From: Lachnospiraceae bacterium
GTDB lineage: Bacteria; Bacillota; Clostridia; Lachnospirales; Lachnospiraceae
DNA: 64,000 nt
Direction: 5' to 3'
Assembly (NCBI GenBank): GCA_029008875.1
Contig: JAQXJP010000015.1
Location: 1 to 64,000, forward strand
This document shows, piece by piece, positions 6,140 through 21,465 of this stretch. Within the stretch, counting starts at the first letter, position 1, and every line of letters starts with the position of its first letter. The notes beneath the pieces are model-generated. The model was not told the origin of the DNA, made no database searches, and saw nothing but the letters and a program-made list of their open reading frames with translations. Both the position numbers and the translations under genes were made by a program.

Positions 6140-7189
6140 ATGAAAAAGAAACTTATGGCAATGGCTCTTGTGGCCGCAATGGCACTGATGTCTATGGTCG
6201 GATGCGGCAATGCAACCGCGGGAAGCGGCACGGAATCCGGCACGGCAAATGAGGGAAGAACCGAGTACAAGGTCGGCATTGTGAAGTATGTGGACGATGC
6301 ATCTTTGGACCAGATTGAATCTGCAATCATGGCGGAGCTGGATGCCAAGGGAGCCGAGCTTGGGGTGACCTTCAATTATCAGGATTACACTACCAATGGT
6401 CAGGCGGACGCTACCGTGTTGAATCAGATTGCTGCAGATTTGGTTGCAGATGAGGTGGATGTCATTATCCCAATTGCAACTCCGGCGGCAATGGTTATGC
6501 AGTCTGCAACGGAGGACAATCAGATTCCGGTTGTCTTTTCCGCAATTTCCGATCCTGTGGGCGCAGGTCTTGTGGCAAGCCTGGACGCGCCGGGCGCCAA
6601 CATTACCGGAACCAGCGACGCTCTGGATACGGACGCAATTATGAATTTGATTCTCACCGCAAATCCGGATGCAAAGAAGATTGGCCTCCTCTACGATAAG
6701 AGCCAGGATTCTTCCAATGCTGCCATCGCAACCGCAATCGATTTTTGCAAGGCAAACGGATTGGATTATGTAGAGAAAACCGGAACTACCACAGCGGAAC
6801 TTTCCGCAGCGGCGGATGCCCTTGTGGCAGAGGGGGTTGACGCGGTGTTCACCCCGTCCGACAACACGGTAATGACCGCAGAACTTGCCATTTTTGAGAA
6901 GTTTACCGAAGCGAAGATTCCTCACTATGCCGGTGCGGATTCCTTTGCGCTGAACGGAGCTTTTCTGGGATATGGCGTAAACTATACCAACCTGGGAACC
7001 GTCACTGCAGATATGGCAGTAGATGTGCTGGTGAACGGGGCAAATCCGGCGGAGACTCCGGTGCAGACCCTTGCGGACGGAATTATCACTGTGAATACGG
7101 AGACAGCTGAGGCGTGCGGCATCGATGTAAGTATTTTTGAGGGACTGGGCTCTAAACTTGTAGAGGTTGTTACAGCAGAGAGCTTTTAA
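6140..7189 (+). CDS. ABC importer substrate-binding lipoprotein (TrpX/COG2984 type)
   Basis: This 349-residue protein has a lipoprotein signal peptide (MKKKLMAMALVAAMALMSMVGC, lipidated Cys22), so it is anchored outside the cell membrane. The mature part is a two-lobed periplasmic-binding-like fold of the ABC_sub_bind family (COG2984). Family features seen are PVVFSAISDPVGAGLV and TPSDNTVMTAE, plus the GVNYTNLG segment. Some members bind tryptophan (TrpX); the exact ligand here is not readable. An AGGAGG ribosome binding site lies 7 nt upstream. It is the first gene of a three-gene importer operon with the permease and ATPase that follow. Confidence 0.9.
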   Translation: MKKKLMAMALVAAMALMSMVGCGNATAGSGTESGTANEGRTEYKVGIVKYVDDASLDQIESAIMAELDAKGAELGVTFNYQDYTTNGQADATVLNQIAADLVADEVDVIIPIATPAAMVMQSATEDNQIPVVFSAISDPVGAGLVASLDAPGANITGTSDALDTDAIMNLILTANPDAKKIGLLYDKSQDSSNAAIATAIDFCKANGLDYVEKTGTTTAELSAAADALVAEGVDAVFTPSDNTVMTAELAIFEKFTEAKIPHYAGADSFALNGAFLGYGVNYTNLGTVTADMAVDVLVNGANPAETPVQTLADGIITVNTETAEACGIDVSIFEGLGSKLVEVVTAESF

Positions 7190-7212
7190 TCACATTTTGG
7201 GGAGCGTAAAAC

Positions 7213-8184
7213 ATGGGTAATATTATTACGATGTCCATCGTGCAAAGCGCATTGGAACTGGGATGCATTTATGCGTTGGTGGCAATGGCTCTGTTCATTT
7301 CCTTTACCATTTTGGATATTGCGGATTTGTCCACGGACGGCTGCTTTACTCTGGGATGTGCGGTCTGTGCTACGGTCACCATCATGGGGCATCCCATTTT
7401 GGGACTGTTTGCAGCCATGCTTGCCGGGGTGGTATCCGGATTTGTCACGGCCTTTTTGCAGACGAAGCTGGGAATCCAGTCCATCTTGGCGGGGATTATC
7501 GTCAATACGGGATTGTATACCATCAACATTGCGGTGATGGGCTTTTCATCCAACTTGAACCTGTTCGGTTGTACCACTATCTTTACATGGGGAAAAGAAA
7601 GTTTCGGCAGTAGCTGGTCACAGCTTGTGCTTGCGCTAGTCATCGTGCTGGTGGTTGGATTATTGATTTCCCTGTTCCTAAATACACGGTTGGGCCTGTC
7701 CATCCGTGCCACCGGTGACAACCCGGATATGGTGCGGGCGTCCAGCATCAACACGAAGCTGATGATCACCATCGGCCTGTGCGTGGCCAACGCCATGACG
7801 GGATTGTCGGGAGGGCTGTTGGCACAGTACCAGCGCTCCTGCGATATCAATTTGGGAACCGGAATGGTGACCATTGCGCTGGCCAGCCTGATTATCGGGG
7901 AGAGTCTCATCGGAAAAGGATCCATGTTCACGAGGATTCTTGGCGTGATTTTGGGAAGCTGTCTGTATCGCTTTATCGTGGCTGTGGCTTTGCGCCTCAA
8001 TGTGCCGGCGGAGGCATTGAAGTTGGTCTCCTCAATTATCGTGGCTATCGCCATCGCGCTTCCGTATCTGAAAAAGCAGTTTGCTTTTTACAAGGCAAAG
8101 CGGATTGCAAAGGAAGAGAACGAGGCATACATACAGGAGATTACAGCGCAGGAACAAAATAGCCGGAAGGGGGAGATGGAATAA
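7213..8184 (+). CDS. ABC importer permease (TrpY/COG4120 type)
   Basis: This 323-residue hydrophobic protein belongs to the branched-chain amino acid/ribose-type permease family (COG4120). About eight to nine membrane helices are visible. The loop NTRLGLSIRATGDNPDMVRASSIN (around residue 160) is the cytoplasmic coupling segment characteristic of these permeases. The charged C-terminus after residue 285 is cytoplasmic. The gene lies 23 bp after the binding protein gene, and its stop codon overlaps the start of the ATPase gene (TAATG). A homodimer probably forms the channel through which the ligand of the upstream lipoprotein is imported. Confidence 0.9.
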   Translation: MGNIITMSIVQSALELGCIYALVAMALFISFTILDIADLSTDGCFTLGCAVCATVTIMGHPILGLFAAMLAGVVSGFVTAFLQTKLGIQSILAGIIVNTGLYTINIAVMGFSSNLNLFGCTTIFTWGKESFGSSWSQLVLALVIVLVVGLLISLFLNTRLGLSIRATGDNPDMVRASSINTKLMITIGLCVANAMTGLSGGLLAQYQRSCDINLGTGMVTIALASLIIGESLIGKGSMFTRILGVILGSCLYRFIVAVALRLNVPAEALKLVSSIIVAIAIALPYLKKQFAFYKAKRIAKEENEAYIQEITAQEQNSRKGEME

Positions 8185-12120: not shown

Positions 12121-14514
12121 ATGATCGGAATATATATGGATGAAGAGATTGATGTGGAGCGCGGCCTGTCGAAGGAGCAGGTGAGCGAGCGGATTCTGGC
12201 AAACAGGGAGAATGTTTCGGTGAAATCTGCGACGAAATCCCGTCGGGAGATTGTCAAGGAGAGCGTCTTCACCTATTTCAATTTTCTGTTTTTCCTCTTG
12301 GCGGTTCTTCTGGCCATGGTGGGAGCGTGGAGCGATATGCTGTTTTTGTTCGTGATCGTGGCCAACACACTGATTGGAATGATTCAGAAACTTCATGCGA
12401 AAAAGGTGTTGGATGGGCTGGCAGATCAGGCAATCCAGAATGTAACAGTGGTTCGGAACGGCAGGAAGGAAACGGTGCCGGCAGACAAGCTGGTGCTGGA
12501 CGACGTTGTCTGGTTTTGCCCCGGTGATCAGATTGTGGCAGATGCGCTCGTGGTGGAGAAATCGGCGTTGGTCAATGAGGCGTTAATCACCGGGGAGGCG
12601 GATGAGATAAAAAAGACTGCGGGGGATATGCTTCTGTCAGGAAGCTTTGTGGTGTCCGGCGAGGTGAAAGCGGTCCTGGTGGCAGTGGGAGAGGAGTCCT
12701 ACCTGTCCGGCCTGACTATGAAGGCCACGATGAGCAAGGAAGAGGAACTGTCCGAGATGATTCGATCCCTGGATAATCTGATACTGGTGATTGGAATTAT
12801 TCTCGTACCCATCGGGATTGCCTTGTTTGTGCAGTCCTATCGCTTTAACGGACAATCCCTTTTTGACAGTGTTACCGGAATGGTGGCGGCAGTGATTGGG
12901 ATGATCCCGGAGGGACTGTATCTGTTGTCCAGTGTTGCCATGGCCATGGGAACCATGCGATTGGCCAAGAAAAACGTGTTGGTGCACGATATGCGGTGCA
13001 TCGAGACTTTGGCAAGGGCGGATGTACTGTGCGTGGATAAGACGGGGACCATCACAGAGCCGGGAATGATGGTGTATCGAATCTTGATACCGGATTGTTT
13101 GCCACGGCAATGCGCGCGGGAGGAGGTGGAAAAAAGACTTGTCTGCCTGGTGAAGAGCATGGATGCGGACAACGTTACCATGGAGGCGATTCGGGAGTAT
13201 TACAGAGAATGGGATAAGGAATACGAGACCCGGGAGGTGATTGGATTCTCGTCAAAAAACAAATATTCTGCTGTGTTGTCGGATGGTTTCTACTATGTGT
13301 TGGGAGCGCCGGAAAAGATATGGGCGAACCATGACGATGAGATGGAGCAGGTGATTGAAAACTACTCCGCCAAAGGGTTTCGCGTTCTGGCCTTCGGGAT
13401 GTGTGAGTCCCTGGAGGAAGGGGAAAATCCGAAGGCCGAGCTTCTGGCATTTCTTATTCTGGCGAATCCCATCCGCGAAAATACAAGGGAAACTTTCGCC
13501 TATTTTGCGGATAACGGGGTGGAAATCAAGGTGATCTCCGGAGATTATCCACTGACCGTGTCAGCCATCGCGCAGGATGCGGGGATTGCGGGCGCACAAA
13601 AATATGTGGATGCCTCTACTCTCAATACTTGGGAGGATTATTTCTACGGGGTGGAGAAATACAATATCTTTGGACGTGTGACCCCGGAACAGAAGAAAAT
13701 ATTGGTGCAGGCACTGAAAGCACGGGGAAAAACCGTGGCTATGACAGGGGATGGGGTGAACGATGTGTTGGCGCTGAAAATTGCGGACTGCAGCATTGCC
13801 ATGGCTTCCGGCTCCGACGCAGCATCGACGGTTTCCCAGCTGGTGCTTATGGATTCGGACTTCTCCAAGATGCCTTCCGTTGTGGCGGAGGGCAGGAGAG
13901 CCGTAAACAATCTTCAGAAAACCGCGGCTTTGTATATCGCAAAAAACATCTTTTCCCTGCTTTTGGCGTTTTTTTCGGTTCTGCTCATGTGGGATTATCC
14001 TCTTGTGCCGTCCCAGGTCACTCTGATATCGGCTTTCACCATAGGTATCCCGTCGGTGATGCTGACGCTGGAGCAGAATCAGAAACCAATCCGGGGACAT
14101 TTTCTGGCGAATGTGCTGCTTCGGGCCTTCCCGGCGGGGGTCACAAGCTTTGTCACTGTGGCGGGGCTTGTGACTTTTTCCAGGGAATTTCAAGTGGATT
14201 TGGAGTGCCTGTCAACCTCCTGCACCATACTGGTTACGGCAGTGGGATTTTTGATTCTGTACCAGATTGCAAAACCTTTGAAAAAGCAACATATCATGAT
14301 GTTTGTGGGGTTGCTTTTCGGATGGCTGTTTTGCATGACGAAGGTTGGGGAATTCTTTTCCATCACGGCGATTTCAAAACAATGTGCGATGCTCACGGTA
14401 TTGTTTTTGCTGATTGCAGAACCGGTGCTCTATTATCTCACAAAAGTTGTGTCGAAATTATATAGCAAAATAACTTTATTTCGAGAAAAAGGAATGACAA
14501 AGGAGCCGAAATAG
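12121..14514 (+). CDS. Cation-transporting P-type ATPase, CtpE-like
   Basis: This 797-residue membrane pump has an actuator domain with a TGEAD motif (near 158), the helix-4 signature MIPEGL, the phosphorylation motif DKTGT (Asp306) and the hinge TGDGVND. About eight to ten membrane helices are present. The PEGL motif and overall size match the CtpE subgroup, for which calcium uptake has been described in Mycobacterium; the ion here is inferred. The start at 12121 is chosen because GAGAGGTG lies 5 nt upstream. The frame stays open upstream through the right arm of the inverted repeat, but that extension has no homologous look. The promoter was not found and may lie inside the repeat. Its last codons contain the promoter of the next operon. 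Confidence 0.9.
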   Translation: MIGIYMDEEIDVERGLSKEQVSERILANRENVSVKSATKSRREIVKESVFTYFNFLFFLLAVLLAMVGAWSDMLFLFVIVANTLIGMIQKLHAKKVLDGLADQAIQNVTVVRNGRKETVPADKLVLDDVVWFCPGDQIVADALVVEKSALVNEALITGEADEIKKTAGDMLLSGSFVVSGEVKAVLVAVGEESYLSGLTMKATMSKEEELSEMIRSLDNLILVIGIILVPIGIALFVQSYRFNGQSLFDSVTGMVAAVIGMIPEGLYLLSSVAMAMGTMRLAKKNVLVHDMRCIETLARADVLCVDKTGTITEPGMMVYRILIPDCLPRQCAREEVEKRLVCLVKSMDADNVTMEAIREYYREWDKEYETREVIGFSSKNKYSAVLSDGFYYVLGAPEKIWANHDDEMEQVIENYSAKGFRVLAFGMCESLEEGENPKAELLAFLILANPIRENTRETFAYFADNGVEIKVISGDYPLTVSAIAQDAGIAGAQKYVDASTLNTWEDYFYGVEKYNIFGRVTPEQKKILVQALKARGKTVAMTGDGVNDVLALKIADCSIAMASGSDAASTVSQLVLMDSDFSKMPSVVAEGRRAVNNLQKTAALYIAKNIFSLLLAFFSVLLMWDYPLVPSQVTLISAFTIGIPSVMLTLEQNQKPIRGHFLANVLLRAFPAGVTSFVTVAGLVTFSREFQVDLECLSTSCTILVTAVGFLILYQIAKPLKKQHIMMFVGLLFGWLFCMTKVGEFFSITAISKQCAMLTVLFLLIAEPVLYYLTKVVSKLYSKITLFREKGMTKEPK

Positions 14515-14522
14515 AGTATAAT
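14494..14522 (+). promoter_or_regulatory. Promoter of the four-gene DUF5717/DUF5716 operon
   Basis: ATGACA (14494-14499; five of six -35 bases) is followed after exactly 17 bp by a perfect TATAAT (14517-14522). The promoter overlaps the last codons of the ATPase gene and lies about 35 bp upstream of the next start codon, so the downstream operon can be transcribed independently. Confidence 0.65.
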
Positions 14523-14556: not shown

Positions 14557-17500
14557 GTGCGGAAACGAATCCGGCAATTGGCCAGAGGAAAATTCGATTA
14601 TGTGAAGCCAGAACTTACCTTTTCGCAAGAGAGTATTGAGCTTGAAGCGACAGAGAATTCCGAGCAATCCGGCAGTTTTACAATTACAGGTGACGGCCGC
14701 CATGGAATTCGCGGAGTGATATATTCCACCAACCCCAGGATGGAATGTCTTACTCCACAATTCGACGGTGAGGAGTGCGTGATTCGATACCGGTTTCATG
14801 GACGTGGACTTGCGGAAGGAGAAAGTCAGACAGGCGATTTTGTGATTGTATGCAACCAGAGGGAATACAGTCTTTCTTTTTGTGTCAACATTTCCAAGCA
14901 ATACATGGATTCCTCCATCGGACAGATTAAGACTCTGTACGATTTTTCCAATTTGGCGAAGGAGAGCTGGGAGGAGGCTTTCCAACTGTTCTACAACAAG
15001 AACTTTGTCAATATTATCAAGCCCAAAGAAGTAAAAGAGGCTATGATCTACCGCGGAATCGTATCCGCGAAGCCTTCCAACAACAATTTGGAAGAGTTTT
15101 TGGTGGGCATTCGCAAGAAAAATCCAATTAATTTCAAAATTGAACAGACGGAATTGTACTTTGAGGATGTGACGGAGTCTCGCAAGGAGGTTTTGGAGAT
15201 TCACAAGGACAATTGGGGGTATCTGGAGATCGATGTCACTTCCAGTGAGCCCTTTTTGTGTGTCTCAAAGGAGAAGATAACCACCGACGATTTCCTCGGG
15301 AGCACCTGTCTGTATGAGTTTTACATCGACGTGGAAAAACTCCATGCAGGGCGGAATTTTGCATCCCTGACATTCACGGGGGTGAAGCAATCTGTCACCG
15401 TAAGCATGGAGATCACCAACGGATTGATGGGGGAGCAGAAAAAAGCCTACCGTGCAGAAATCAACGAATGTAAGGCCGGAATCATGGAACTCTATCAGGC
15501 CTATCGCCTGAAGAAAATTGTGACGGGGGTCTGGGCCAACGAGACGATTCAGATTTTGGATCACCTGCAGCAGATGGTTCCGGAGGAACCTATGTATGTG
15601 CTGATGAAAGCCCAGGTTCTTATCATCAATCGACAGCGTCAGGAAGCGGAATGGATTTTGGATGATTTCAAACGGGAGTGGGTGGACCGCAAGGCTCCGG
15701 TATGGGGGTATTATCTGTATGTCATGACCCTGATGGAGCGGGAACCCAGCTATGTGGACCGCATGACGAAGGAAATCGAGTTGATTTTCCACGAGAATCC
15801 GGATTCGGTGTTGCTGTTCTGGGTCCTCACCTTTTTGCAGGAGGAGTACTACAACAACAACGCCCACAAGCTAAAAGCCATTGAGTACTGGGTGCTGAAG
15901 GGATGTTCCTCCCCATATCTGTATCTGGAGGCCTACTATCTGATCTGGCAGGATCCGTACCTGTTGACCAAGCTTGGAACCTTTGAGATTCGCATTCTCC
16001 GCTGGGCGGTTCACCACCACGCCATCACCAAGGATATTGCGGTTCAAATTTTCCAGATTGTGGAGACCACCAAAGGGTTTGACCCGGTGCTTTACGAGTT
16101 GCTGTGTGCTGCCTACGAGGTGGATCAGAAGCCTGCCAACATCGGCATGATCTGCAGCTATCTCATAAAGGGACAACAGTACGGAAGAGAATTTCACGAC
16201 TGGTATGTGAAGGGAATCGAACTGGAGCTTCGCATTACCGGATTGTATGAGGCATATCTGCTCTCCATGGATGAGCGGGAGATATTTGAGGTGCCCAAGA
16301 TCATCCAGATGTATTTCCAGTACGAGACTGCGCTTCCCTATCGCAAGATGGCTGTATTGTACAACAACATTATCGCGGGGAAGGAGTCCAATCCGGAGGT
16401 CTACAACAAGTACCGCCGGGTGATGGGCAGATTCGCCATGGAGCAGGTGGAGCAACAGCACATGGACGACAATCTGGCAGTTGTGTACCGGGATATGCTG
16501 GAACTGGGCATGGTGAATGAGGACATTGCCCATTCACTAACCAGGATATTGTTCACCCACAAACTGATGATCACCGGGGGCCGGATGGTTCGCGCCATCG
16601 TGTACCAGCATCAATTGAAGGATCCCCAGATTGTTCCGATTACCGACAACGTGGCCTATTTCCAGCTGTACACCAAAGAGTATGCGGTGGTGTTTGAGGA
16701 TGAGAAGGGCAGACGCTATGTAGGTAATGTGGACTATCAGATCGACCAGCTGATGGATCCCAACCCCTATCTGGGAAAATGCATGGAGCTTGCGCCGGAG
16801 GAACTGCCTTATATACTCGCCTACTTTGATACCCGCAAGAATTATCTCACATTCACCCAGGAGGACCGCAAGTACTTCGGAAGGGTATTGTTCGCCAAGG
16901 AATTGAGCGTGCAATACCAGGCGGAGATTATCCCGGAGATTATCCGTTTTTACCAGACATGTGAATATGACGGCGTGATTAAGGAATACCTGGAGCAGAC
17001 GGATTTCGATGAGATGCCCACCATGGTGCGCAGATACATGATGGAGCTTTTGGTGGAAAATCATCTATTTGATAAGGCTTATGACATGCTCATGAGATAC
17101 GGAATCGATCAGATCGGCTCCGCCGGCAAGGTGGCTCTGTCCAGTTACCTGATCAAGAAGTACTCCGCGGAGGAGGACGAATTCTTAGTTTCCTTGGTGG
17201 AACAGGGATTTCTGGCAAACAAGTACAATGATGATATGCTGTCGTACCTGTGCCGCTATTATAACGGCCCTACGGACACCATGCTGGCTGTCTGGAAGGC
17301 TTCCTCGGTGTTTGAACTGGCCACCTTTGAGTTGGAGGAGCGCCTGCTGGTTCAGATGCTGTACTCGGAAAAACTGAGGTCGGAGACTCCGGAAATTTTC
17401 AAGAGCTACTATGAGAACGGCGGAAGGGAACTGGTGGTACTGGCTTACCTGTCCTACCGCGGACATGAATTTTTCCGCAATGAGGTATCCTGTGAGGAAT

Positions 17501-18099
17501 ATGTATTTGAGATGATTCAGGCGAGGTATGTGTACCACATGGAGCTGAACGATGCGTGTAAGCTGGCATTGCTCAAGTACCTTGCGGAATTAAAGAACAT
17601 CGACAACACGCAGTACGCCATCGAGGATGAACTTCTCGAGGAGTACACATGCCGCAACATGAATTTTGCCTTCTACAAGAAGTTGGACAAGCGGCTGGTG
17701 ATGAAATACCATTTTTACGACAAGGTATTCCTGGAATACCGGGCGAACCCCCGCAAGCATGTGGTGCTGCATTTCAGCAGGGATGAGGACGGGTCCGTGT
17801 TCTTGGCAGAGGATATGCCGGATGTATATTACGGCATTTTCGTTAAGTCCTTCGTCATGTTTTTCGGGGAGATGGTACAGTACTATATCTCGGAGGAATA
17901 CAAGGGTGAGGTCTCCGTCACGGAGAGCAACCGGATTATGAACAATGATGTGTATGGGGAGAAGGACGAAAGCCGTTACAACCTCATCAATCAGATGCTG
18001 ATTTCCACCACGCTGCAGGATGAGAATACGCTGTATCACAACATGAAGCAGTATGCGGGATATGAGCAGGTGACAGACACGATATTTAAACTGTTGTAG
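14557..18099 (+). CDS. Large uncharacterised protein, DUF5717-like, Ig-like N-terminus plus helical repeats
   Basis: This protein has 1180 residues. The N-terminus is basic (MRKRIRQLARGKFDYVKPEL). Two beta-rich Ig-like segments follow, at about 20-115 (FSQESIELEATENSEQSG, then GDFVIVCNQREYSLSFCVNI) and about 195-290 (beginning KIEQTELYFEDVTESRKEVL). From about 300 to 1080 the sequence is alpha-helical and Tyr-rich and resembles irregular TPR/SEL1-like solenoid repeats (for example MYVLMKAQVLIINRQRQEAEWIL). No signal peptide or membrane helix is visible. It resembles the DUF5717 family of Lachnospiraceae as I remember it. The GTG at 14557 is chosen because AGGGTGG lies 5 nt upstream; another GTG is 9 bp earlier. 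It leads a tight four-gene operon. Function is unknown; a scaffold or partner-binding role is inferred. Confidence 0.85.
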   Translation: MRKRIRQLARGKFDYVKPELTFSQESIELEATENSEQSGSFTITGDGRHGIRGVIYSTNPRMECLTPQFDGEECVIRYRFHGRGLAEGESQTGDFVIVCNQREYSLSFCVNISKQYMDSSIGQIKTLYDFSNLAKESWEEAFQLFYNKNFVNIIKPKEVKEAMIYRGIVSAKPSNNNLEEFLVGIRKKNPINFKIEQTELYFEDVTESRKEVLEIHKDNWGYLEIDVTSSEPFLCVSKEKITTDDFLGSTCLYEFYIDVEKLHAGRNFASLTFTGVKQSVTVSMEITNGLMGEQKKAYRAEINECKAGIMELYQAYRLKKIVTGVWANETIQILDHLQQMVPEEPMYVLMKAQVLIINRQRQEAEWILDDFKREWVDRKAPVWGYYLYVMTLMEREPSYVDRMTKEIELIFHENPDSVLLFWVLTFLQEEYYNNNAHKLKAIEYWVLKGCSSPYLYLEAYYLIWQDPYLLTKLGTFEIRILRWAVHHHAITKDIAVQIFQIVETTKGFDPVLYELLCAAYEVDQKPANIGMICSYLIKGQQYGREFHDWYVKGIELELRITGLYEAYLLSMDEREIFEVPKIIQMYFQYETALPYRKMAVLYNNIIAGKESNPEVYNKYRRVMGRFAMEQVEQQHMDDNLAVVYRDMLELGMVNEDIAHSLTRILFTHKLMITGGRMVRAIVYQHQLKDPQIVPITDNVAYFQLYTKEYAVVFEDEKGRRYVGNVDYQIDQLMDPNPYLGKCMELAPEELPYILAYFDTRKNYLTFTQEDRKYFGRVLFAKELSVQYQAEIIPEIIRFYQTCEYDGVIKEYLEQTDFDEMPTMVRRYMMELLVENHLFDKAYDMLMRYGIDQIGSAGKVALSSYLIKKYSAEEDEFLVSLVEQGFLANKYNDDMLSYLCRYYNGPTDTMLAVWKASSVFELATFELEERLLVQMLYSEKLRSETPEIFKSYYENGGRELVVLAYLSYRGHEFFRNEVSCEEYVFEMIQARYVYHMELNDACKLALLKYLAELKNIDNTQYAIEDELLEEYTCRNMNFAFYKKLDKRLVMKYHFYDKVFLEYRANPRKHVVLHFSRDEDGSVFLAEDMPDVYYGIFVKSFVMFFGEMVQYYISEEYKGEVSVTESNRIMNNDVYGEKDESRYNLINQMLISTTLQDENTLYHNMKQYAGYEQVTDTIFKLL

Positions 18100-18110
18100 G
18101 AAGGGATAGG

Positions 18111-19343
18111 ATGGAATCGAAAAGTCCGTTGTACATTGGCATTGATCTCAACGATCGGTTTGCCATGGTAAGCTTCTATCAACTGAATATGCAGGAGCCG
18201 GAGACCGTCAGCACGGTGGCGGGCAGTGAGAACTATACTATTCCCCTGGTGCTGGCCAAAAGGCGGGGGCTGGGACAGTGGTATTACGGGGAGGAAGCCA
18301 TGAAGATGGCGAAGACCAGCGAGGTCATCTGTGTGGATTCCCTGCTCCGGCGAGCGATTGACGGGGAGGCTATCAAGATCGAGGATGAGACCTTTGCCGC
18401 CGAGGACTTGCTTGGACTTTTTATCCAAAAACTGGTTCAGCTTCCGCAAAAACTGGGGAACACGGTGGGGTGTGACCGTCTGGTTTTGACCCTGGAGAGG
18501 CTGTCCCGGGAAAATATGGACCTGTTCTGGAGAATTGCCGCAAAGCTGGGTCTGGAGAGACAGCAGTTCATGGTGGTGGATCACAAGGAGAGTTTTTACT
18601 ACTTTGCACTGAATCAGAAGGAGGATCTGTGGTTCCACGATGTATATCTCTTCGAGTGCGATAACGACAGCATGTTCTATTATGCTTTAAAGCGCAATAC
18701 ACGGACGGTTCCACAGGTGGTCAGCATCACGGAGGGAAACCGGGTTCTGCTCAGCGAGGATAAGGACTCTTCCTTCCTCCACATTCAGCAGAGTGCTTTC
18801 GAAAATAAAATCATCTCTTCCGTCTACCTGGTGGGGGATGGGTTTGACGGCGGATGGATGAAGGAATCCCTGAACTTCCTCTGCAGGGGAAGACGAGCCT
18901 TTGTGGGCAAGAATCTCTACTCCAAGGGCGCCTGCTATGCGGCTGTGATCCGTGAGCAGGAGGATCGGTGGCCCTATATCTACATGGGCGAGAACGAGAT
19001 GAAGTTCAACATTTGTTTCAAGGTACATAACCGCGGAGAACTGGAGTTTTACACCCTGATCAGTGCCGGGAAAAACTGGTTTGAGACCAAGGGAGAGTGT
19101 GAGGTAATCCTGGCGGGGAACTCCCAGATTGAGTTTTGGAAACAACTTCCCTACAGCAGGGAGGCCCAGATTGAGACTTTGGAGCTGACGGATCTGCCCA
19201 AGAGACCGGATTGCACCACCAGACTTCGAATCACCGCACAGCCCATCGCAGATGACAAGGTGGTCATCGAGATCAAGGATCTGGGATTCGGAGAGATTAT
19301 GAAGGCCACGGAAAAGGTCTGGAAATATACGATGTCAATTTGA
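18111..19343 (+). CDS. Degenerate Hsp70/actin-like protein, DUF5716-like
   Basis: This 410-residue protein follows the order of an Hsp70 nucleotide-binding domain. YIGIDLNDRFAM (residues 7-18) stands where DnaK has its phosphate-1 loop. YTIPLVLAKRRGLGQWYYGEEA resembles the 'TPSVV...GEEA' segment. AEDLLGLFIQKLVQ and the RLSRENMDLFWRIAAKLGLE helix follow in the expected places. VYLVGDGFDGGWMKESL aligns with the adenosine-motif region. Key nucleotide residues are changed: the GGGT phosphate-2 loop is replaced by VYLFECDNDSMF, and GTT by NDR. No substrate-binding domain of DnaK type is present; the C-terminal ~120 residues look beta-rich. ATP binding may therefore be lost or altered. It lies 11 bp after the large protein and 10 bp before the TPR protein. 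The fold assignment is by eye. Confidence 0.75.
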   Translation: MESKSPLYIGIDLNDRFAMVSFYQLNMQEPETVSTVAGSENYTIPLVLAKRRGLGQWYYGEEAMKMAKTSEVICVDSLLRRAIDGEAIKIEDETFAAEDLLGLFIQKLVQLPQKLGNTVGCDRLVLTLERLSRENMDLFWRIAAKLGLERQQFMVVDHKESFYYFALNQKEDLWFHDVYLFECDNDSMFYYALKRNTRTVPQVVSITEGNRVLLSEDKDSSFLHIQQSAFENKIISSVYLVGDGFDGGWMKESLNFLCRGRRAFVGKNLYSKGACYAAVIREQEDRWPYIYMGENEMKFNICFKVHNRGELEFYTLISAGKNWFETKGECEVILAGNSQIEFWKQLPYSREAQIETLELTDLPKRPDCTTRLRITAQPIADDKVVIEIKDLGFGEIMKATEKVWKYTMSI

Positions 19344-19353
19344 GGAGGCTGCA

Positions 19354-20193
19354 ATGGGAGAATTGTTATTGTGTAGAGAATCGATTGCGGCAATGCCTTT
19401 TTATGTGGAAGGAATCTCCATCAATCTGTATTCTCTGGAGGAATTGAGTTATTACATTGCCAACAATACCTATCTGTTGGAACCGGATTTCATGTCGGAG
19501 GAACTGTGCACCTGGATTGATAAGGAGTTGAAACGCACGAATCTGGCGGACAAATTGCGGGATATGATACGGGAACAAGTAAAGCTGGCCACGTTTGTGG
19601 AGTTGATTTTGAAGGAGACCGGCTATTGTACCGGGCAGGAAATTATCAACATCTGCGCCGCTATCTCGGATATGGAGGAACGCTCCGATTTTGAATGCAA
19701 CAAAATCCGGGCGGACCGCCTGATGGAGAGGGACAAGATACTGGCTGCAATCTATGAGTATAAGCGGCTGCTGGGCACGGAGGATGCCAAACAGGAGGAT
19801 CCGGAGGTGGTTGGCAACATCTGGCACAATCTGGGTACGGCGTATGCCAGGTTGTATATGTTCGATGGGGCCATTGAATGCTATCACATTGCCTATTCCC
19901 TGAATCAAAATCCGGAGTCCAGGAAGGGAGAGCTGATGGCGTACCGGTGTAAGAGGGACGAGAGCGACTTCATTCGCGTAGCCATGGAGTACGGTCTGGA
20001 TGACAATGAGATGCAGCAACTGCGCAATGAGTTAACCATGGTCAGCCGCAGCGAGCGGATGCAGGAGTTTGAGGCCCAATTGGAAGAGATTGCTCGATTG
20101 CCGGAGCAGGGAGAAAAGGAAAAGTATAAGCAGGAGATTCAGGCAATCATACAGAACTGGAAAGACGGATACCGGCGTCTTTGCCGCGTATAG
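19354..20193 (+). CDS. TPR-like helical protein of unknown function
   Basis: This 279-residue soluble protein is mostly alpha-helical. Residues about 140-205 form a recognisable TPR pair, with EVVGNIWHNLGTAYARLYMF then DGAIECYHIAYSLNQNPESR and the preceding helix RDKILAAIYEYKRLL. The N-terminal part is acidic and carries no motif that I recognise. The C-terminal ~50 residues (ERMQEFEAQLEEIARLPEQG onward) are predicted coiled coil. The gene starts 10 bp after the Hsp70-like gene, behind a GAGGAGG ribosome binding site, and its end nearly touches the next gene. A TPR protein next to an Hsp70-like protein suggests a co-chaperone-like partner, which is inference. Confidence 0.8.
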   Translation: MGELLLCRESIAAMPFYVEGISINLYSLEELSYYIANNTYLLEPDFMSEELCTWIDKELKRTNLADKLRDMIREQVKLATFVELILKETGYCTGQEIINICAAISDMEERSDFECNKIRADRLMERDKILAAIYEYKRLLGTEDAKQEDPEVVGNIWHNLGTAYARLYMFDGAIECYHIAYSLNQNPESRKGELMAYRCKRDESDFIRVAMEYGLDDNEMQQLRNELTMVSRSERMQEFEAQLEEIARLPEQGEKEKYKQEIQAIIQNWKDGYRRLCRV

Positions 20194-20201
20194 AGGTTAG
20201 A

Positions 20202-21407
20202 ATGTTATTTGATTTTTTTCGAAAAAGAAAAACCTATATTGAGGATTACGAGGAGGAAAGGGCTCAGAGAAACGGCTATGCGCCCCTGGTGCCGGAGGAG
20301 GACCCGGAGGTGGTCAGGAAGCGGGAAATCGCGATGGCGGCCAGCCGCAAGCATACGGCGGTGCAGCGATGCGAGGAACTGATTGACGCCGTCCGTGTGC
20401 TGGACGACCTCAAGTCGGAGTACCAGCTGGTTACCGCCTATCTCAATGATATTCAGAAAATCGAGGAGATGGACCCGAGGCAGAGGGAGCCCATCACGGA
20501 GGCAGCTCGCCAGATCGGTAAACTGGACACCGCCCGCAATCAGTTCCTCAACAAGGAGCATACCTTGTCGGATTATCAGTATGCGCAATTCCAGGAGGAA
20601 GAGCGGGATATGCCGGGAATCATCCGGCGCTTCCAGTCCAACGAGGCTTATCTGGAGGCCATCCAAAAGGATATGCGTCTGTTGGAGGGGGAGAAAGTCG
20701 AGTGGGAGATGTTGAAGGAGGACCAGTTGGAGGAGCAAAAGACCCTGCGGCGGATGTCGGTGGGAGTATTGATTCTCGCGGCGGGGGTGGTACTTCTCTT
20801 GACACTCCTGTACTTTGTCATGGAGATGGACACCCAGCTCTACATGCTGATTGTTGCTTTTCTGGTGGTGCTGTATTCCTCCTACGCAATCATCCGATAC
20901 CAGGAGTCCAACAGGGAGATTAAGAAGAGTGAGATCAATCGGAATCAGGCAATCTCTCTGGAAAACCATGTCAAGATCAAGTATGTAACCATCAAAAATG
21001 CGGTGGACTACACCTGCACCAAGTACAAGGTGACAAATTCCAGGGAACTGATCTACAATTTTGAGCAGTATCAGGAGATGCTCAAGGAGAAACAACGCTT
21101 TCGGCAGACCAGCGACGATTTGATCTATTACAGTGAGCGCCTTGTGCGCCTTCTGGAGAATGAGAATATGTATGATTCCAGAATCTGGCTTCACTATATC
21201 AGCGCCCTGATGGAGCCCAAGGAAATGGTGGAATTGAAGCACAGCATGCTCACTAGGAGACAGCAGGTCCGCTCCCAGATTGAGAATCAGATGGAGACGG
21301 TCAAACAGCTTCGGGAGGAGATAGCTGGGTATGTTTATGAGTCGGGGGCGGATATGAAGCAGGTGGCGCAGGTGCTCAGGCAAATAGATGCACTGAACAT
21401 ATTATAA
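20202..21407 (+). CDS. Coiled-coil protein with two central membrane helices, unknown function
   Basis: This 401-residue protein begins MLFDFFRKRKTYIEDYEEER. Residues about 55-180 are charged coiled coil. Two adjacent hydrophobic segments follow (VGVLILAAGVVLLLTLLYFV near 190 and LYMLIVAFLVVLYSSYAII near 215), and then about 170 residues of further coiled coil. Both ends are expected in the cytoplasm, with a hairpin in the membrane. It is the last gene of the four-gene operon and may tether the complex to the membrane. The ATG at 20202 with AGAGG 5 nt upstream is preferred over an upstream TTG. I do not recognise a named family. Confidence 0.8.
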   Translation: MLFDFFRKRKTYIEDYEEERAQRNGYAPLVPEEDPEVVRKREIAMAASRKHTAVQRCEELIDAVRVLDDLKSEYQLVTAYLNDIQKIEEMDPRQREPITEAARQIGKLDTARNQFLNKEHTLSDYQYAQFQEEERDMPGIIRRFQSNEAYLEAIQKDMRLLEGEKVEWEMLKEDQLEEQKTLRRMSVGVLILAAGVVLLLTLLYFVMEMDTQLYMLIVAFLVVLYSSYAIIRYQESNREIKKSEINRNQAISLENHVKIKYVTIKNAVDYTCTKYKVTNSRELIYNFEQYQEMLKEKQRFRQTSDDLIYYSERLVRLLENENMYDSRIWLHYISALMEPKEMVELKHSMLTRRQQVRSQIENQMETVKQLREEIAGYVYESGADMKQVAQVLRQIDALNIL

Positions 21408-21436: not shown

Positions 21437-21465
21437 TTGACACCACATATTCATTTTCATATAAT
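21437..21465 (+). promoter_or_regulatory. Consensus sigma-A promoter of gltX
   Basis: TTGACA (21437-21442), a 17-bp spacer and TATAAT (21460-21465) match the consensus perfectly, 44 bp upstream of the gltX start codon. It should give strong constitutive expression of gltX. Confidence 0.9.

Follow-up and report, generated by a model that had tools for sequence, protein, structure and literature searches.

The window analyzed here, the whole 64,000-nt stretch at the start of contig JAQXJP010000015.1 from a Lachnospiraceae bacterium, carries four genes, A to D, that lie head to tail on the + strand at 14557-21407. They are spaced by 11, 10 and 8 bp and form a real operon, as tight as a preliminary description of the sequence had claimed. 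Our analysis identified the product of gene B as a degenerate Hsp70 and suggests that the operon is the reduced remnant of a larger machine. Throughout, ‘own family’ refers to the family of the window (Lachnospiraceae) and ‘sister families’ to other families of the same order; handles of the form G### and L### denote genomes and loci, respectively. The genes and the diagnostic parts of B were annotated as follows.

14557..18099, + strand: gene A, DUF5717_N plus DUF5717, 1180 aa, GTG start (PF18984 4e-284; PF18983 2e-97)
18111..19343, + strand: gene B, DUF5716, a degenerate Hsp70 of 410 aa with nucleotide-binding domain (NBD) and the beta part of the substrate-binding domain (SBDbeta) and no lid (PF18980 1e-109; model, fold match and tree)
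18138..18161, + strand: degenerate phosphate-1 loop of B, GIDLNDRF versus GIDLGTTN in DnaK (alignment)
18639..18830, + strand: segment of B from the degenerate phosphate-2 loop to the adenosine motif, 60 residues versus 143 in DnaK, with lobe IIB missing (alignment)
18996..19340, + strand: SBDbeta-like C-terminal end of B, carrying its best-conserved motifs AGxNWY, LPxRP and DxGFG (alignment; model strands)
19354..20193, + strand: gene C, tetratricopeptide repeat (TPR) protein, 279 aa (PF07719 3e-4; sister orthologue 5e-26)
20202..21407, + strand: gene D, 401-aa coiled-coil-like protein with a membrane hairpin, not present in every operon (hydropathy, alignment and distribution)

The resemblance of A and B to DUF5717 and DUF5716 noted earlier proved to be actual membership, with scores far above the curated Pfam cut-offs (PF18984, PF18983 and PF18980; 945, 327 and 366 bits versus 25, 25 and 34.7). 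Structure modeling and fold comparison placed B among Hsp70s by fold, returning the proposed Hsp70-like NBD together with an SBDbeta-like part whose strands lie at residues 300-409. The best fold matches include Hsp110 and Ssz1 chains level with DnaK, a tie that therefore indicates no special kinship with Ssz1. Alignments showed that the altered nucleotide loops described before are real and common to B proteins of the own family. Between the phosphate-2 loop and the adenosine motif, all 62 own-family B proteins have 60-78 residues versus 143 in DnaK, which leaves ~70 residues gone at lobe IIB, the GrpE contact of Hsp70. The catalytic residues (DnaK numbering) are kept in none (Lys70 and Glu171) or one (Thr199) of these proteins and the full DnaK set in 0 of 62; Thr11 is likewise absent throughout, Gly10 is kept in 17 and the adenosine-motif glycine in all 62. 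The window protein matches PF18980 only, and a PF00012 search of the window genome misses it. B is thus an Hsp70 by descent and fold that lacks the catalytic residues and lobe-IIB segment; the ATP loops and PF00012 match of a working Hsp70 are missing as well. That DUF5716 is an Hsp70, and its tie to the larger locus described below, are new from the present analysis, the Pfam families having carried no function.

For conservation across the own family, we searched 200 genomes, one per genus, with PF18983 for A and PF18980 for B. Each was found in 195 genera and both together in 194, with neither in four (G426, G488, G495 and G525) and only one in two (G417 and G543), whose genomes are 67-68% complete. 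In 61 loci besides the window, picked among genomes with a match on long enough contigs, A and B were same-strand neighbors without exception, separated by at most 108 bp in 60 loci and by 926 bp in L252, in line with the earlier proposal that the genes belong together. C follows B as a separate gene in 59 of the 61 loci and is fused to it in the other two. Trees from 59 loci had 29 of 56 splits in common for A and B, 23 for A and C and 22 for B and C, with 0.12 for relabeled A-B trees. A and B nearly always occur in one copy per genome, and the G+C content of the operon resembles that of the window (0.498 versus 0.488), so nothing points to recent transfer. A-B-C(-D) is a near-universal, vertically inherited operon of the own family.

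Beyond the own family, a sample of the order gave PF18980 matches in 71 of 146 genomes, 15 of them own-family, and 20 of the other 56 loci were examined. Fifteen of these show the gene order A, B1, GrpE-like, B2, B3, B4, C, followed by D in six; the remaining five are truncated at contig ends or fragmented. The block B1-GrpE-B2-B3-B4 was also present in 38 of 79 named loci, taken from the best 80 of 105 matches to the von Willebrand factor A (vWA) end of B4, with A before and C after it in 28; these loci come partly from the same genomes as the set of 20, and many of the others meet an early flank or contig end. Named carriers include Defluviitalea phaphyphila, Candidatus Epulonipiscium, termite-gut Defluviitaleaceae, Petrocella and Vallitaleaceae. 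In L057, Pfam assigns Hsp70 to B1 (5e-76), B3 (7e-63) and B4 (4.5e-96, plus VWA 1.9e-10), and to B2 more distantly (Hsp70 1.4e-17, DUF5716_C 1.5e-26), while the GrpE domain (3e-13) occupies residues 517-641 of a 644-aa helical protein. The vWA domain of B4 sits where the lid would be. ATP motifs are intact in the B1, B3 and full-length B4 proteins shown and degenerate in 12 B2 proteins. The preliminary description had read the four window genes as one membrane-associated machine. Their linkage supports the view that they belong together, and neither of two outcomes named in advance as refuting, absence of conserved linkage or of an Hsp70 fold, was observed. What had been overlooked is that the operon looks derived, by reduction, from a locus encoding four proteins of the Hsp70 type, one of the GrpE type and a vWA domain. 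Mean identity across 11 sister loci was 68% for B1, 66% for B3 and 69% for B4, whereas A, B2, C and the GrpE-like protein averaged 23%, 30%, 28% and 25%, respectively, and own-family A, B, C and D show 27-29%. By these values, what was lost would be a slowly evolving motor plus a fast GrpE-like protein, and what was kept a fast scaffold. In four loci from termite-gut Defluviitaleaceae or related metagenome-assembled genomes (L129, L134, L140 and L175), several unrelated open reading frames (ORFs) separate B3 and B4, as if the block were breaking up.

The direction of change was read from a careful B tree of 46 rows, which carried warnings for long branches and for uneven composition. It nests own-family B within B2 (100/100), with the B2 of G598 as neighbor (100/99), and unites B2 and B3 in a clade (100/100); a quick 70-row tree concurs. 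On these trees, own-family B is orthologous to the degenerate Hsp70 B2 of the sister families. Because B is nested in a clade of degenerate Hsp70s, the own family appears to have kept the scaffold and lost three ATP-competent-looking Hsp70s, GrpE and the lobe that GrpE grips. Three own-family genomes carry one GrpE copy each and seven sister genomes two, and PF00012 searches of three own-family genomes returned DnaK and short MreB-like matches only. G598 (L047), the closest relative with a full set, keeps the larger version. The simplest history is that B1, B3, B4 and the GrpE-like gene were lost on the own-family stem, along with lobe IIB of B.

A is shared by both versions (9e-76 across 786 columns). 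A predicted model of residues 341-1180 (mean predicted local distance difference test score (pLDDT) 79.6, predicted template modeling score (pTM) 0.50) backs the helical solenoid suggested previously and runs as solenoid, beta domain, second solenoid and second beta domain:

16555..16749, + strand: beta domain of A between two solenoid runs (aa ~667-731; model of aa 341-1180)
17716..17937, + strand: second beta domain of A, C-terminal to the second solenoid (aa ~1054-1127; same model)

Such a layout would suit a platform role. Solenoid plus beta domain occurs twice, and an internal duplication is possible. Separately, four loci of family f31 from the same phylum (L218, L219, L220 and L221) contain ORFs of ~1050 aa in a conserved neighborhood that match 55 residues near the C terminus of A (E 4e-6 to 3e-4); their surroundings showed no Hsp70-type gene, and the one ORF scanned showed no Pfam family.

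The TPR signal of C is below cut-off in the window (3e-4) and strong in its sister orthologue (5e-26), which bears out the earlier assignment. In two other genera, B and C share a single reading frame: L234 encodes a 709-aa protein (B, residues 6-419; C, residues 434-708) and L250 one of 685 aa (B, residues 2-411; C, residues 433-671). For D, a start at TTG 20181 was considered and rejected; homologues begin like the ATG at 20202. Its predicted membrane association was recovered as a hydrophobic hairpin near the middle of the protein:

20742..20900, + strand: transmembrane hairpin of D (aa ~181-233; 19-residue hydropathy maximum 2.83)

Hydropathy revealed no transmembrane-like segment in A, B or C. 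The idea of D as a constant membrane anchor did not hold: D was detected in 29 of the 61 own-family loci and, in nine of nine own-family genomes whose operon lacks it, nowhere else in the genome. Since D is optional, the A-B-C core is not necessarily membrane-bound. In four sister genomes, D is unlinked to the cluster, with a valS-like neighbor in three (L214:8685-9899, L215:9799-11034 and L217:9051-10424); the one neighbor scanned with Pfam is valS. Several intact loci likewise have a valS-like gene directly after D or C, and the D-valS link may be ancestral.

The promoter proposed for the operon corresponds to one promoter-like site:

14494..14522, + strand: sigma-70-type promoter-like site (ATGACA - 17 - TATAAT) upstream of A, 11/12 consensus bases

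Taken alone, the site is weak evidence because the whole region contains 14 such sites against 9.4 (s.d. 3.1) expected. Among relatives, 21 of 61 have a site with at least 10/12 bases in the 200 bp preceding A, compared with 7% of mononucleotide shuffles. A perfect 12/12 sigma-70-type site at 21437-21465 precedes the downstream gene, which is glutamyl-tRNA synthetase-like by its sequence. In L239, the gene at 14788-16128, which lies 1 kb upstream of A, encodes a secreted-looking vWA protein whose match to B4 (E 2e-11) is confined to the vWA part.

We lean slightly toward an ancestral Hsp70 machine that lost its motor and kept its scaffold, with B now an Ssz1-like pseudo-Hsp70 in a stable A-B-C complex. 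The ancestor would have been a dedicated machine with a conserved motor (B1, B3, B4 and GrpE) on a fast-evolving scaffold (A, B2, C and D), and the own family would have shed the former and retained the latter. B would act without a cycle, as a locked Hsp70 body independent of nucleotide, and would use its SBDbeta to hold a client or a segment of a partner; it may be bound to C as a permanent partner, as the B-C fusions hint, and be organized by solenoid A. In operons that include D, this protein would tether the complex to the membrane. Its task would be housekeeping for the own-family lineage. Several observations weigh against this picture. Of the 62 own-family B proteins, 53 retain Asp8 and 33 retain Asp194, and because Asp8 is so widely kept, nucleotide binding by B is possible. 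The B model was built on an alignment of sister B2 proteins on which it could lean, and its residues 171-222 have pLDDT <50. The sole pointer to contact among A, B and C is the pair of B-C fusions among 61 loci. The pair A and B is not strictly essential to the family, since four of 200 genera lack both genes and, in three of these, genome completeness is at least 93%. In G598, B4 and C are each split over two reading frames (L047:7339-9383 and 6204-7230) and the GrpE-like protein has 279 aa, so gain and loss near this genome are not fully clear; decay or assembly error is possible.

The reverse history, in which sister lineages added GrpE and Hsp70s onto an original A-B-C-D, is permitted by parsimony alone if the root is placed on the own family. 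It was already disfavored and we find it scarcely credible: own-family B is nested within B2, B2 is sister to the intact B3, and degeneracy and deletion are derived states relative to DnaK. The retained Asp8, Asp194 and adenosine-motif glycine, with the membrane hairpin of D in 29 loci, would also fit a B that belongs to a membrane complex, in the manner of PilM and FtsA, and serves there as a switch that binds nucleotide without hydrolyzing it, or as an actin-like protein that assembles, rather than as a client-holding pseudo-Hsp70. This is unlikely given the complete absence of Thr11, Lys70 and Glu171, the scarcity of Gly10, the many loci without D and the fact that the most conserved part of B is the SBDbeta-like end, which has no counterpart in actins. 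A role for B-C as a holdase or Hsp110-like exchange factor that serves the cellular DnaK, instead of forming a separate complex, would agree with the Hsp110 and Ssz1 fold matches and with the frequent role of TPR proteins as Hsp70 partners. We consider it decidedly unlikely, as B has neither the lobe-IIB segment nor a lid, the sister version brings its own Hsp70s and GrpE, and the operon is unlinked to dnaK in the genomes inspected, the shortest distance being ~22 kb in G636.

A conflict or anti-phage system akin to GAP1-N2 neighborhoods (PMC7159879) or CoCoNuTs (PMC11090510) shares the theme of Hsp70s, GrpE, an Ig/FNIII-plus-TPR protein and vWA. It gains from PADLOC matches that also count against our favored reading: three of six sister proteins match entries across Hsp70 or TPR stretches, among them B3 and B4 to part of the NBD of candidate PDC-M61B (9e-11 and 4e-7) and C to two entries at 4e-6. 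We nevertheless regard such a system as highly improbable. A and B, inherited vertically and nearly always as single copies, occur together in 194 of 200 genera, none of the four window proteins has a PADLOC hit at 1e-3, Pfam scans of window and sister-locus proteins revealed no effector domain, and the GAP1-N2 GTPase (PF20013) was found in 0 of 12 genomes, with a control search finding it in 1 of 14.

The motor-loss reading can be widened to a class of Hsp70 machine, undescribed to date, that arose in this order with four lidless Hsp70-type proteins, a long dedicated GrpE, a vWA arm and an Ig/solenoid scaffold, and from which one family dropped the ATP motor while keeping a nucleotide-free pseudo-chaperone complex as near-core genes; we see this claim as evenly balanced. 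The literature searched describes neither version nor, as the preliminary description had stated, a joint role; DUF5717 is unmentioned in it and DUF5716 appears only in an unrelated listing. For two function-less Pfam families, each in 195 of 200 sampled genera, the analysis supplies fold and ancestry together with a role open to testing. An Hsp70 machine apparently shed its ATPase, its exchange factor and the lobe gripped by that factor as one package with the scaffold staying, and the larger version, G598, the reduced version and the B-C fusion offer a natural series for work on pseudo-chaperones without ATP.

Among known systems, Ssz1 of the yeast ribosome-associated complex (RAC) is described as holding a segment of Zuo1 in its SBDbeta (PMC7083937). 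The partner there is a J-domain protein, whereas the neighbor of B is a TPR protein; no J domain was found among the operon proteins, and J domains occur elsewhere in the nine genomes searched. Unlike Ssz1, B lacks the lobe-IIB segment. The nearest theme in the literature searched is that of GAP1-N2 GTPase conflict neighborhoods of firmicutes and actinobacteria (Kaur et al. 2020; PMC7159879), which combine HSP70 and GrpE with an FNIII protein that carries a fused TPR or DnaJ part; in some of them a second HSP70, truncated, is present. The HSP70, GrpE and FNIII/TPR elements are alike; the present loci differ by the absence of GAP1-N2 from the 12 genomes, by four Hsp70s and a vWA fusion in the sister version and by near-universal single-copy inheritance. 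CnuD of Type III CoCoNuTs, characterized as an Hsp70 NBD/SBD protein with degenerate motifs and predicted poor ATPase activity (PMC11090510), is a similar degenerate Hsp70-like protein. CoCoNuTs, however, center on McrB-like GTPases and nucleases, which the present Pfam scans do not show; no McrB-like GTPase with coiled coil was found among the four window and ten sister-locus proteins. Finally, as in the DnaK-DnaJ-GrpE system, sister B1, B3 and B4 keep their ATP motifs and are accompanied by a GrpE domain (3e-13), but the sister cluster has neither J protein nor lids, and it carries GrpE on a long helical protein, a vWA domain on B4 and a degenerate fourth Hsp70.
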